A stretch of 64,000 bases of DNA from Modicisalibacter xianhensis (lineage in GTDB: Bacteria > Pseudomonadota > Gammaproteobacteria > Pseudomonadales > Halomonadaceae), in the NCBI RefSeq assembly GCF_900113605.1, contig NZ_FOPY01000011.1:1-64000 (forward strand), read 5' to 3'. A program made the position numbers and the translations under genes. A model generated the notes under the pieces. That model saw only the letters and a program-made list of their open reading frames with translations. It had not been told where the DNA came from and made no database searches. The stretch's first letter is position 1. Each line of letters starts with the position of its first letter. Shown here one piece after another: positions 59,230 to 64,000 of the stretch.

Positions 59230-60291
59230 TCAGCGCACCTCGCCACCGGCGATGCCTGCCGAGGCAAAGGTTGCCATGTCGGCAAGCATCCGCGTGGCCG
59301 AGACCAGCAGCGGGTAGGCTAGCGCCGCCCCGGAGCCTTCCCCCAGGCGCAGGTCCAGGTCGAGCAGTGGACTCGCGTCGAGCGTGTCCAGCGCCACGCC
59401 ATGGCCCGGCTCCTGGGAGCGATGGCCGAAGATCAGGTAGTCGCGCACCGACGGGCAGAGCCGGCACGCAATCATTGCCGCCACGGTGGCGATGAAACCA
59501 TCGACGATGACCGGCATCCTCTGAGCCGCCGCACCCAGGTAGGCCCCGCTCATCGCTGCGATCTCCAGCCCACCGAGCTTGCACAACACGTCCAGCGCAT
59601 CGTCGGCCTTTGCCTGGCGCGCCGCCAGGGCCCGCTCGATCACAGCCGCCTTGTGGGCCAGCCGCGCCTCGGCGATGCCAGTGCCCCGGCCAATCAGGCC
59701 GCGCACCTCCTGGCCGGTCAGGGCCGCCAGCACGGCGCTGCTGGCGGTGGTGTTGGCGATGCCCATCTCGCCGACGACCAGGCAGCGACAGCCGGCTACG
59801 ATCATGCGCTGGGAGGCCCGGATACCGACGTCGATGGCCTGCATGCCCTCGTCGCGGGTCATGGCGTCAGCCTCGACGATATTGCCCGTGCCAGGGCGCA
59901 CCTTGGCGTGAACAATACCCTCACCACTCAGTTCGCTCGCCACGCCGACGTCCACCACCTCCAGGCGGGCCCCGATCTGGCTGGCAAAGACATTGATCGC
60001 CGCGCCCTGATTGACGAAATTGGCCACCATCTGCGCGGTGACTTCCTGGGGAAACGCCGATACACCTTCCGCCGCCACGCCATGATCGGCGGCAAACACC
60101 AGCACGCCGGGCGGCGTTATGTCGGGGAAGGCCTCGCCGCGGATTTCTGCCAGCTCGATGGCCAGCGCTTCCAGGCGTCCCAGACTGCCGGGCGGCTTGG
60201 TGAGGGTATCGAGGTGGGTACGGACCCGGTCGCCGATATGGCGATCCCGGCCGCGGATACGGGCAAGCGTATGCTCTAGCGTGGACGACAT
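59230..60291 (-). CDS. cobT: Nicotinate-nucleotide-dimethylbenzimidazole phosphoribosyltransferase
   Basis: A 353-residue enzyme with LTKPPGSLGRLEALAIELA near residue 30, VFAADHGVAAEGVSAFPQEV, and GEMGIANTTASSAVLAALTG. It makes alpha-ribazole phosphate from DMB (supplied by BluB) and NaMN. It is the first gene of the minus-strand cob block. The 81-base gap upstream (60292-60372) separates it from the vanX-like gene and shows no riboswitch. It is CobU in Pseudomonas naming and unrelated to the chelatase subunit also called CobT. Confidence 0.95.
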   Translation of the reverse strand: MSSTLEHTLARIRGRDRHIGDRVRTHLDTLTKPPGSLGRLEALAIELAEIRGEAFPDITPPGVLVFAADHGVAAEGVSAFPQEVTAQMVANFVNQGAAINVFASQIGARLEVVDVGVASELSGEGIVHAKVRPGTGNIVEADAMTRDEGMQAIDVGIRASQRMIVAGCRCLVVGEMGIANTTASSAVLAALTGQEVRGLIGRGTGIAEARLAHKAAVIERALAARQAKADDALDVLCKLGGLEIAAMSGAYLGAAAQRMPVIVDGFIATVAAMIACRLCPSVRDYLIFGHRSQEPGHGVALDTLDASPLLDLDLRLGEGSGAALAYPLLVSATRMLADMATFASAGIAGGEVR

Positions 60292-60372: not shown

Positions 60373-61146
60373 TCATAGCTGGCGCCGCCAGCGACTCTCG
60401 ATGGTATCGAGCTCGGCTGGCCCATAGAGCGCCTGCCCGTGGCCCCCGTAGTGAGCCCATAGCTGATCGCCAAAGTCGTAATGCCACCATTCGCTGGGCA
60501 GGTTGGTGAAGCCCTGCTCGCGCATGGCATTAAAGAGCAGGCGACGGTTGTCACGCGCCCGGGCCAGGCGTGCATCGTGGGTACCCTGCCCTTCCAGGGC
60601 GGCGGTATGCGAGGCCGGCACCGCCTCGTCGAACAGCGTGCCCATGTCCAGCTGCAAGCCGTCCGCATCGCACAGCGTCACGTCGACGGCGCCACCGGTA
60701 AGGTGCGGACTCGGCGCCAGGGGATCGCGACTGGGAACGGAGACGAACTCCCGGGTCCGCGTCAGCAGTTCCGTCTCGTCGGCCTCGCCATGGTGGGCAC
60801 GGATCGCTTCATACAGCGTATCGAACAGGTACTGCTGTACCCGCCACGGGCGCCAGCCGTCCAGCACCACCAGTTGCAGCCCCGCCGGCAGCGAGCGCGC
60901 CACGGCCAGCAGCCTGCGATACACGCCTTCGCGCACGTAGCACTCCGGCACGGCACCGGGGATGCCCTGCTTGGCGTAGGCCGGAAACACCTTGATCGGC
61001 GGCGGCGCCAGGCTCATGGGCACCAGAGGTTCATCGCTGCCCTGGATAGGCAGGCGCGTGACGCTGGCCCAGGGCGGTTCTTCCAGGCTCGGAATGGACG
61101 GCAGCCGGTCGGTCAAAGACGAGTTTCTAGAAGGAGTCGACATCAT
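60373..61146 (-). CDS. D-alanyl-D-alanine dipeptidase, VanX/DdpX family (M15D)
   Basis: A 257-residue zinc peptidase. The metal ligands are H148 and D155 in SPHLTGGAVDV and H222 in SEWWHYDFG, with catalytic base E219 and the conserved arginine R99 in GWRP. This set matches VanX and E. coli DdpX, which split D-Ala-D-Ala. I see no signal peptide, so it is probably cytoplasmic. It starts three bases after the TRAP permease stop, so it is co-translated with a TRAP transporter. No vanH or vanA is present, so this suggests use of a peptide as food or recycling rather than vancomycin resistance. Confidence 0.9.
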   Translation of the reverse strand: MMSTPSRNSSLTDRLPSIPSLEEPPWASVTRLPIQGSDEPLVPMSLAPPPIKVFPAYAKQGIPGAVPECYVREGVYRRLLAVARSLPAGLQLVVLDGWRPWRVQQYLFDTLYEAIRAHHGEADETELLTRTREFVSVPSRDPLAPSPHLTGGAVDVTLCDADGLQLDMGTLFDEAVPASHTAALEGQGTHDARLARARDNRRLLFNAMREQGFTNLPSEWWHYDFGDQLWAHYGGHGQALYGPAELDTIESRWRRQL

Positions 61147-61149
61147 TGT

Positions 61150-62427
61150 TCATCCAAGCAGGGTCGGCAGCCAGAGAGTCAAGGGGGGATAGAGAATCAG
61201 CAGCACCAGCACCAATATGGCGGTAAGCACGAAGGGCCAGATCGTCTTGAACAGCTCGACGATCTCCAGGCGGCTCACGGCGGCAGCCACGAAGACGCAG
61301 GCCCCCATGGGCGGGGTAATCAGCGCGATGGTGATATTCAGGGTAATGATGATCCCCAGATGCACTGGATCAACCCCAGCCATCATGGCGACAGGCGAGA
61401 AGATCGGCGTGAGCAACATCAAGGCCGAGACTTCTTCCATGAACATGCCGGTCACGAAGGTGATGGCGCTGATCATCAACAGAATAATGACAGGATTCTG
61501 CATGTAAGGGGCCAGCATCTCCACGAACTGCGCCGGGACCTGGGCATAGGAAAGCAACCAACTGATGGTGGCCGACGCTGCCATGATCAGGAAGATTGCG
61601 GACGTCAGGCGCACCGTATCGATAATGGCTCGCCACACATCGGCAAGCCCCAGGTTGCCCAGCAGGAAACCGCACAACGCGACGTAGAGCGCCGTCAGTG
61701 CGCCGGACTCGGTCGGCGTCACGAACCCCATCACGATGCCGGCCACAATGATGAACGGCGCGACCAGGGCCGGCATGGCCGCCAGGGCAGCCACACCCAG
61801 TTCGCGAGCCGCAGGCCAACTGCCCCGCTTGGCCAAGCCCTTGTGCCAGGCATAGCCAGCGTTCATGACCATGAACGCGAGCCCAAGGACCAGCCCCGGC
61901 ACGACACCGGCCAGAAACAAATCGCCCACCGAGGTGTTGGTCAGCGAAGCGTAGAGGATCATGAAAATGCTGGGCGGAATAATCGGACCGATCAGCGAAC
62001 TGCCCGCGGTCAAGCCGGCAGCAAACGCGGTGGAATACCCTTCCTTGCGCATCGAGGGCACCAGTAACGACCCCAGCGCGGAGGTATCCGCCACCGCCGA
62101 GCCGTTGACGCCGGCGAAGAACACGCTCGATACCACGTTGACATGCCCCATGCCGCCACGCAGATGACCGACCAGAAGGCGCGCCAGCCCCATCAGGCGG
62201 TCCGTCAAACTGCTTACGTTCATCAAGTTACCGGCAAGGATGAACAGGGGAATCGCCATCAGGGAGAACGCGTTGATACCGCCGAAGAACTGCTGCGGCA
62301 TCATTCGCGGAATCATCGAGACATCGACGAACAGAAACCCGACCAGCGCTGTCGTCAGCAGGGCCAGGAACAGGGGCAGCCCCAGCAGCACATGAGCCAG
62401 AAAAACCCCCAGCATGGCAAGAATCAT
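61150..62427 (-). CDS. dctM: TRAP transporter large permease (DctM family)
   Basis: A 425-residue membrane protein, the standard DctM length, with about 12 membrane segments. Family landmarks are VFFAGVNGSAVADTSALGS, GSSLIGPIIPPSIFMILYA and TPTESGALTALYVALCG. It is the ion-coupled channel of a TRAP uptake system. The start overlaps dctQ (ATGA). An upstream extension of the frame lies within dctQ and is not used. Confidence 0.94.
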   Translation of the reverse strand: MILAMLGVFLAHVLLGLPLFLALLTTALVGFLFVDVSMIPRMMPQQFFGGINAFSLMAIPLFILAGNLMNVSSLTDRLMGLARLLVGHLRGGMGHVNVVSSVFFAGVNGSAVADTSALGSLLVPSMRKEGYSTAFAAGLTAGSSLIGPIIPPSIFMILYASLTNTSVGDLFLAGVVPGLVLGLAFMVMNAGYAWHKGLAKRGSWPAARELGVAALAAMPALVAPFIIVAGIVMGFVTPTESGALTALYVALCGFLLGNLGLADVWRAIIDTVRLTSAIFLIMAASATISWLLSYAQVPAQFVEMLAPYMQNPVIILLMISAITFVTGMFMEEVSALMLLTPIFSPVAMMAGVDPVHLGIIITLNITIALITPPMGACVFVAAAVSRLEIVELFKTIWPFVLTAILVLVLLILYPPLTLWLPTLLG

Positions 62428-62915
62428 GCGGTATCCTCCACCAAGGTGCGCAGCGGCGCCGGGCCATACCAGAGCGCGTGCCAGGACAGCAGAGCGAAGC
62501 CTACCGGCAACGACATCATGGGAATGGTCCGGCTGATCCCCAGCCCCGAGCTGGTAAACATGGATACCGATAGGGCGTACTTGTAGCTGATCACCGTACC
62601 GGCGATGGCCAGTCCCAGCGTCAGCAACCACTGATAGACATTGAGCAGGCGGCACAGGGCGGGAGGCAACAGCCTCTCGATCAACGCGACTCGCATATGA
62701 CCACCCTCGACCCATACGGCGCCCGCCGCCAGCAGGACACTACCGATGATTAGGTAGCGAGCCAGCTCGTCGGTCCAGATAGGCGCCCCTCCTGCCAGGT
62801 AACGCATGAAGACGCCATAGAGGATGACGGCCAGGTCGATGAACAGCATGCTGCCGGCAATGGTCAACGACACCCACCGGCTGATGGACAGCACTCTTGA
62901 ACGAAGTGATGACAT
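62424..62915 (-). CDS. dctQ: TRAP transporter small permease (DctQ family)
   Basis: A 163-residue protein with four membrane segments. It has the DctQ-like FMRYLAGGAPIWTDELARYLII near residue 35. It pairs with DctM. A 64-base gap containing a perfect hairpin (62942-62963) separates it from the binding protein gene. Confidence 0.9.
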   Translation of the reverse strand: MSSLRSRVLSISRWVSLTIAGSMLFIDLAVILYGVFMRYLAGGAPIWTDELARYLIIGSVLLAAGAVWVEGGHMRVALIERLLPPALCRLLNVYQWLLTLGLAIAGTVISYKYALSVSMFTSSGLGISRTIPMMSLPVGFALLSWHALWYGPAPLRTLVEDTA

Positions 62916-62941
62916 GGAAAGTTCTATTGGCAGATGACAGG

Positions 62942-62963
62942 GGCAGGGAGACGTCTCCCTGCC
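62942..62963 (-). terminator. Perfect 22-bp palindrome between dctP and dctQ
   Basis: GGCAGGGAGAC (62942-62952) is followed directly by its reverse complement GTCTCCCTGCC. The hairpin lies 17 bases after the dctP stop. Such hairpins in transporter operons often stop part of the transcripts or protect the 3' end, so that more binding protein than permease is made. Confidence 0.6.
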
Positions 62964-62979
62964 GTGACAGGAGAGGTCG

Positions 62980-64000
62980 TTACTGCGCCAGCTGCGACAT
63001 GCCGGCGTCCTCGAGCGCCATATCGATCCAGCGCTGCTCGATCCCTTCGTCCTTCAGCCACTCCAGATAAGCAGGCTGGCCCTGCTTGCGGAAGGCCTCG
63101 AGGTCTTCCTGCGCAGGACGAATGATCTCCATCCCCTGCTCCTCGAGATAGGCAATACGCTCGTCCACCTTGGCTTCGTTATACTCACGCGCCTTTTCGT
63201 TGGCTTCGGCCACTGCTTCCATGAAGGCCTGGCGGGTATCCTCATCCCAACTGTCCAGCATTTCGCCATTGCCGACCAGGAATTGGTCAGAGTACTGAAT
63301 GTTGGCCAGGGTCAGATAATCCTGCACTTCGTAGAGGCTGCCCAGGATGATGTACATTGGCGGGTTCATCTGGCCGTCGGCGACACCCGTACGCAGGGCC
63401 ATGTAGACTTCCGTCCAAGGAATCGGCGTCCCCGAGGCACCGAACGCCTCATAAAGCGCTACCTGGCTGGGATCCATGGCGCGAAAGCGCAGCCCTTCGA
63501 AATCCTTTGGCGCTTGGATGGGGCGCTCGTCGTTGGTAAATGCCAGGAACCCGCCCTCCTCGACGACGGCCAGCAGCTCGGCACCGGTGCGTTCACGCAG
63601 GGCGTTCTCGACTTCCTTCCAGTACTGCCCTTCGTCGAAGAAGGTGCGTGCCGCCTCGAAATCCTCGAACAGGAAGGGGATCGCGCTGACATAGATTTCA
63701 GGAACGACAGGCGACATTCCGGCGAAAGAGGCAATATTCAGGCTGGGCGTGTTCATCACCTGCTCCATACGCGCCTGCTCTTCGCCAAGCATGCTGTTGG
63801 GATACAGTTTCAACTGAATCTCGCCATTGGTCTTCTCGGCAACAAGATCCTTCAGGTTGGTGGCAAATACATGGACGGCATTCTTGTCGGGATCAGGAGC
63901 CCCGTTATAACTCAGATTGACAGTCGTTTCGGCATGCACGGAACCCGTGAGCATGGCGAGGCTCAGCGAAACGGCCGAAGCCAGAGCTTTCAATGGAAGC
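62980..64000 (-). CDS. dctP: TRAP transporter periplasmic binding protein (DctP family), start at or beyond window edge
   Basis: About 337 residues are visible, with a signal-peptide hydrophobic core (SLSLAMLTGSVHA, cleavage before ET) and the DctP pattern: NLKDLVAEKTNGEIQLKLYP, MLGEEQARMEQV and, in the ligand site, RFRAMDPSQVALYEAFG with an arginine for carboxylate binding, then MALRTGVADGQMNPP. The first in-frame start in view is a TTG at 63993 with no ribosome site, so the true start is probably just past 64000. Ligands of this family carry a carboxylate; a D-Ala-containing peptide is suggested only by the vanX-like gene in the operon. Confidence 0.9.
   Translation of the reverse strand, partial: LPLKALASAVSLSLAMLTGSVHAETTVNLSYNGAPDPDKNAVHVFATNLKDLVAEKTNGEIQLKLYPNSMLGEEQARMEQVMNTPSLNIASFAGMSPVVPEIYVSAIPFLFEDFEAARTFFDEGQYWKEVENALRERTGAELLAVVEEGGFLAFTNDERPIQAPKDFEGLRFRAMDPSQVALYEAFGASGTPIPWTEVYMALRTGVADGQMNPPMYIILGSLYEVQDYLTLANIQYSDQFLVGNGEMLDSWDEDTRQAFMEAVAEANEKAREYNEAKVDERIAYLEEQGMEIIRPAQEDLEAFRKQGQPAYLEWLKDEGIEQRWIDMALEDAGMSQLAQ

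Follow-up and report, generated by a model that had tools for sequence, protein, structure and literature searches.

In Escherichia coli, the ddpXABCDF genes encode a D-Ala-D-Ala dipeptidase together with a peptide ABC transporter. On the side of the TRAP transporters, the closest described proteins are the binding proteins Csal_0660 of Chromohalobacter salexigens (structure 4n8g) and Dde_1548 of Desulfovibrio alaskensis (structure 4ngu), both released in 2013, which we take to have been determined by the Enzyme Function Initiative with D-Ala-D-Ala bound. That presumed ligand already makes the premise of the original prediction, namely that TRAP systems are not known to import D-Ala-D-Ala, probably wrong. 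Pointing in the same direction, the review PMC5812351 places cell-wall constituents among the TRAP ligands of the Vetting et al. 2015 survey. The open-licence literature yielded no report of D-Ala-D-Ala transport, or of growth on this dipeptide, by such a TRAP system: the passages considered from PMC5812351, PMC11668362, PMC8276074 and PMC4646407 mention neither "D-Ala" nor "dipeptide", and those from PMC11762602 and PMC2405808 contain both TRAP and D-Ala with no link between them.

The window, i.e. the whole stretch of 64,000 nucleotides of Modicisalibacter xianhensis that was analysed, ends with the gene order dctP-dctQ-dctM-vanX, which occupies its last 3.6 kb on the minus strand. The periplasmic binding protein gene dctP (62980-64000 and onward past the window end; 345 aa, PF03480 DctP, E 1.5e-77) has its start 17 bases beyond the window, at contig position 64017, and is followed by the small permease subunit dctQ (62424-62915; 163 aa, PF04290 DctQ, E 3.2e-21), to which no NCBIfam model matched. 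The large permease subunit dctM (61150-62427; PF06808 DctM, E 9e-102, TIGR00786 above its cut-off) was called as an open reading frame of 521 aa, whose 5' extension runs across dctQ; taking the start at 62427 gives a protein of 425 aa. With all three Pfam domains above their cut-offs in one operon, the transporter is a TRAP system. The last gene encodes a vanX-like M15 dipeptidase (60373-61146; 257 aa, PF01427 Peptidase_M15, E 2.7e-19). The claim that a VanX-like enzyme begins three bases after dctM in a TRAP operon is confirmed, as the vanX ATG lies 3 bases (ACA) past the dctM stop and the catalytic residues are intact. Given the 4-base overlap between dctQ and dctM and the closeness of vanX to dctM, a single transcript is likely.

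Just upstream of dctP, outside the window and on the same strand, lies a LysR regulator gene (contig 64123-65097; Pfam HTH_1 and LysR_substrate), beyond which trehalose phosphatase and synthase genes are found on the opposite strand. Downstream, cobT (59230-60291, minus strand; Pfam DBI_PRT) is separated from vanX by 81 bases and is read in the same direction, hence the operon could read into the cobalamin genes. A gap of ca. 1.4 kb separates vanX and cobT in the two closest relatives.

In sequence searches the binding protein matches 4n8g with an E value of 1.4e-160 and 4ngu with 2.2e-120, the next best being 5.7e-35, and the predicted DctP model (mean pLDDT 80.4) superimposes on the same two structures with Z 43.0 and 41.3, followed by 33.0 at 24% identity. 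Sharing 72% identity with 4n8g and 56% with 4ngu, which are its sole close solved relatives, DctP belongs by sequence and fold to the 4n8g/4ngu group, well apart from other TRAP binding proteins. A gene of genome G287 that is 99% identical to 4n8g over 316 aa has a vanX 1.9 kb away on the same contig and strand.

Conserved dctPQM-vanX synteny, which the original prediction had proposed to look for, was found. In a sample of 201 genomes of the family (thresholds E <= 1e-40 for vanX and E <= 1e-90 for DctP), vanX is present in 113 genomes, as 114 copies, and DctP in 88; downstream of every one of these 88 DctP genes, at a distance of 1795-2233 bp and in the same orientation, lies vanX. The genus sample shows vanX in all 14 genomes, as a fragment only in G013, and DctP in 12, the two genomes lacking it being G009, where vanX is kept, and G013. 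Beyond the family, a wide genome scan retained 80 of 104 vanX relatives, and a locus was considered linked when P, Q and M occur in order with dctM ending within 300 bases of vanX. This arrangement is found in 42 of the 80 loci, 36 of which are also preceded, in the same orientation, by a LysR match; among the remaining 38, some lie on short contigs. A chance neighbourhood was rejected given the linkage in 88/88 family genomes with DctP and the recurrence of the order in 42/80 loci.

The linked loci are distributed over seven gammaproteobacterial families, the Halomonadaceae, Marinobacteraceae, Oceanospirillaceae, Aeromonadaceae, Pseudomonadaceae, Vibrionaceae and Thiotrichaceae, with one metagenome-assembled genome (MAG) each of Spirochaetota, Synergistota and Bacillota outside the Pseudomonadota. 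The DctPs of these three outside loci likewise match 4ngu and 4n8g first, with a wide gap to the rest. Across the class the pairing is rare nonetheless: in an even sample of 274 genomes vanX occurs in 3 and DctP in 2 (the window's own genome and G162), both with vanX 1.8-1.9 kb away, the vanX of G162 having one stop inside the match. As the genomes compared are related, none of these counts stands for independent events. In a plasmid collection, vanX relatives are present in 58 records and DctP (E <= 1e-60) in one, that of Halomonas sp. PA16-9, where vanX again lies ca. 2 kb downstream on the same strand. Among the 42 linked loci, the identity of each VanX to its counterpart in the window correlates with that of its partner DctP (r 0.89), which is expected from shared ancestry alone. 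On the VanX tree 10 changes of the TRAP label are required, 5 of them forced by well supported branches; therefore, the TRAP-vanX pairing was gained or lost several times.

The dipeptidase is the only match to the M15 family model in the window genome. In an alignment of 23 rows, one for the window and the others from 22 of the 80 loci of the scan, in which identity falls to 36%, R99, H148, D155, E219 and H222 are invariant; by analogy with VanX, from which we take their roles, these would be the zinc ligands and the catalytic Glu and Arg. Together with the PF01427 domain, the five residues identify an M15 enzyme of the VanX/DdpX type. The predicted model (mean pLDDT 91.7) is closest to VanX 1r44 (179 residues aligned, Z 18.6), with VanY as the runner-up (Z 10.6). 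Comparison with two orthologues yields dN 0.084/dS 0.854 and dN 0.096/dS 0.930, i.e. a dN/dS of about 0.1, so vanX is under purifying selection and the coding constraint is clear. The protein scores 38.1 bits against the cut-off of 320 for the VanX resistance equivalog (NF033115) and 79.8 bits against 176 for that of DdpX (NF007557). As neither cut-off is passed, we name it only an M15 dipeptidase, and since it lies well below both, its exact substrate is uncertain. Inspection by eye revealed no obvious signal peptide in the dipeptidase, which fits a cytoplasmic enzyme.

Relatives of this enzyme are also found beside importers of other kinds. Within the window's family, locus L121 (4244-6759, genome G295) lacks TRAP genes, and a sodium:solute symporter gene immediately precedes vanX there in the same orientation. 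At L099 (5898-9120, genome G468), again with no TRAP genes, vanX is succeeded in the same direction by genes for an amino-acid-type ABC transporter (SBP_bac_3, permease and ATPase). More distantly, a Ureibacillus MAG (L071, 6643-13495) clusters a VanX relative with an S58 peptidase, an M55 D-aminopeptidase, an enolase-superfamily protein and peptide ABC genes, an ensemble that, judged from its gene content, looks like a cell-wall peptide salvage cluster. In Salinisphaera shabanensis (L065, 6598-8741) the relative comes directly after an amino-acid permease gene, and in a Tissierellales MAG (L087, 2503-9880) it lies downstream of peptide ABC ATPase genes, from which it is separated by two small open reading frames on the opposite strand; directly after it, on the same strand, is a DUF819 membrane protein gene. 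The neighbour scan at loci without TRAP genes covered 35 hand-picked open reading frames, a subset of all neighbours. In that subset the other lone vanX genes showed no transporter, and the remaining neighbours were unrelated (tRNA synthetase, EAL/GGDEF, patatin, PhoD, MoeA, DsbD etc.) or belonged to no family. These varied neighbours fit a wall-peptide salvage enzyme that may be able to pair with different importers.

Such diversity, together with scores under both the VanX and DdpX cut-offs, raises the alternative that the M15 enzyme is a broader dipeptidase and that the TRAP system accepts D-amino-acid dipeptides more broadly (for instance D,D or mixed ones derived from peptidoglycan or D-amino-acid turnover), D-Ala-D-Ala being one of several. 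The Ureibacillus cluster, in which the relative adjoins different peptidases and a different transporter, is an example in its favour. On the other hand, the one-to-one linkage and the likeness of DctP to 4n8g and 4ngu, with their presumed D-Ala-D-Ala ligand, argue for one main substrate, and we consider such a broad specificity rather unlikely, if worth keeping in mind. With similarly limited confidence, we suggest a family of scavenging modules in which a single M15 dipeptidase lineage would be served by interchangeable importers (TRAP, peptide ABC, amino-acid permease, sodium:solute symporter); its TRAP-LysR form would sense and salvage peptidoglycan from dying neighbours in saline habitats, possibly with several D-amino-acid dipeptides as substrates.

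The enzyme also persists without the TRAP transporter, as 26 of the 114 family copies of vanX have no adjoining DctP, and tblastn of all 26 flanks found none. At four of these loci, all in the window's family (L105, L110, L114 and L115), vanX stands beside decayed TRAP genes: three retain a dctM fragment of 34-48 aa, and L110 has matches to dctM (425 aa) and dctQ (118 aa) and no dctP. From such fragments and the missing dctP, it follows that the transporter decayed and the enzyme stayed. At L105, a gene for an FAD-dependent (DAO-type) oxidoreductase is located just upstream of vanX on the same strand. More unusual than the operon itself are the association of the dipeptidase with different transporters at other loci and its survival where the TRAP genes have gone.

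This survival of vanX in 26 of 114 cases, with TRAP remnants at four of the 26, is what would be expected if the dipeptidase mainly trimmed the internal D-Ala-D-Ala pool, as housekeeping or under stress, its position in the TRAP operon being secondary. Yet vanX is kept in place in all 88 genomes with DctP and the pairing is found in four phyla, which makes internal trimming as the main role improbable. Finally, a vanX cluster for glycopeptide resistance can practically be dismissed: the fold is that of VanX, but the protein is far under the VanX cut-off. Resistance was rejected since the cut-offs are not reached and the scanned neighbours are TRAP genes, cobT, LysR and trehalose genes, not vanH or vanA.

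We therefore regard TRAP uptake of D-Ala-D-Ala, followed by cytoplasmic cleavage to D-alanine, as a highly probable function of the operon, which would then be a TRAP-based analogue of Ddp in E. coli. It is the best reading because the linkage is conserved, the dipeptidase is intact and DctP is by far closest to 4n8g and 4ngu. Counting against it are the dipeptidase scores below both curated cut-offs, the 26 of 114 vanX copies without DctP and the presence of DctP in 2 of 274 genomes class-wide. In the proposed mechanism, DctP would capture in the periplasm D-Ala-D-Ala released from the peptidoglycan of the cell itself or of its neighbours, and DctQM would carry it inwards, presumably driven by an ion gradient. 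The zinc dipeptidase, which we infer to be cytoplasmic, would then split it into two D-alanines, to be reused in wall synthesis or oxidised by a D-amino acid dehydrogenase, with the upstream LysR probably controlling the operon. The window genome does contain a match to such a dehydrogenase, a candidate for using the D-alanine (421.9 bits against a curated cut-off of 383, with one stop, at codon 435 of 437).

The mechanism put forward in the original prediction is thus supported by the linkage, the intact enzyme and the similarity of DctP to the two structures. Its suggestion of a new route does not hold as such, because the binding-protein group has already been sampled structurally, and the operon is orthologous to a system sampled before. 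No new class of system is opened. If the reading is correct, halophilic and marine bacteria would have in this operon a secondary transporter for D-Ala-D-Ala that is amenable to study, a downstream enzyme and a regulator would be connected to a TRAP subgroup of known structure, and the recycling or scavenging of cell-wall dipeptides by such bacteria could be tested directly.

Concerning the known systems, the operon shares the three-part TRAP architecture with SiaPQM and TeaABC, but its DctP shares no more than 24-26% identity with the structures of SiaP and TeaA among the matches listed. With VanX of the vancomycin-resistance clusters (1r44) the dipeptidase has in common the M15 fold and the catalytic residues, and it differs in lying far below the cut-off of the VanX model and in having no resistance genes among the scanned neighbours. 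As in E. coli Ddp, the dipeptidase is encoded together with an uptake system, which is a TRAP transporter here and an ABC transporter there, and the enzyme is below the DdpX (PRK10178) cut-off. Much closer are Dde_1548 (4ngu; DctP 56% identical, Z 41.3) and Csal_0660 (4n8g; 72% identical), from both of which the window protein differs by sequence divergence; in the case of Csal_0660, the near-identical G287 gene adjoins vanX in the same arrangement as the one described here.
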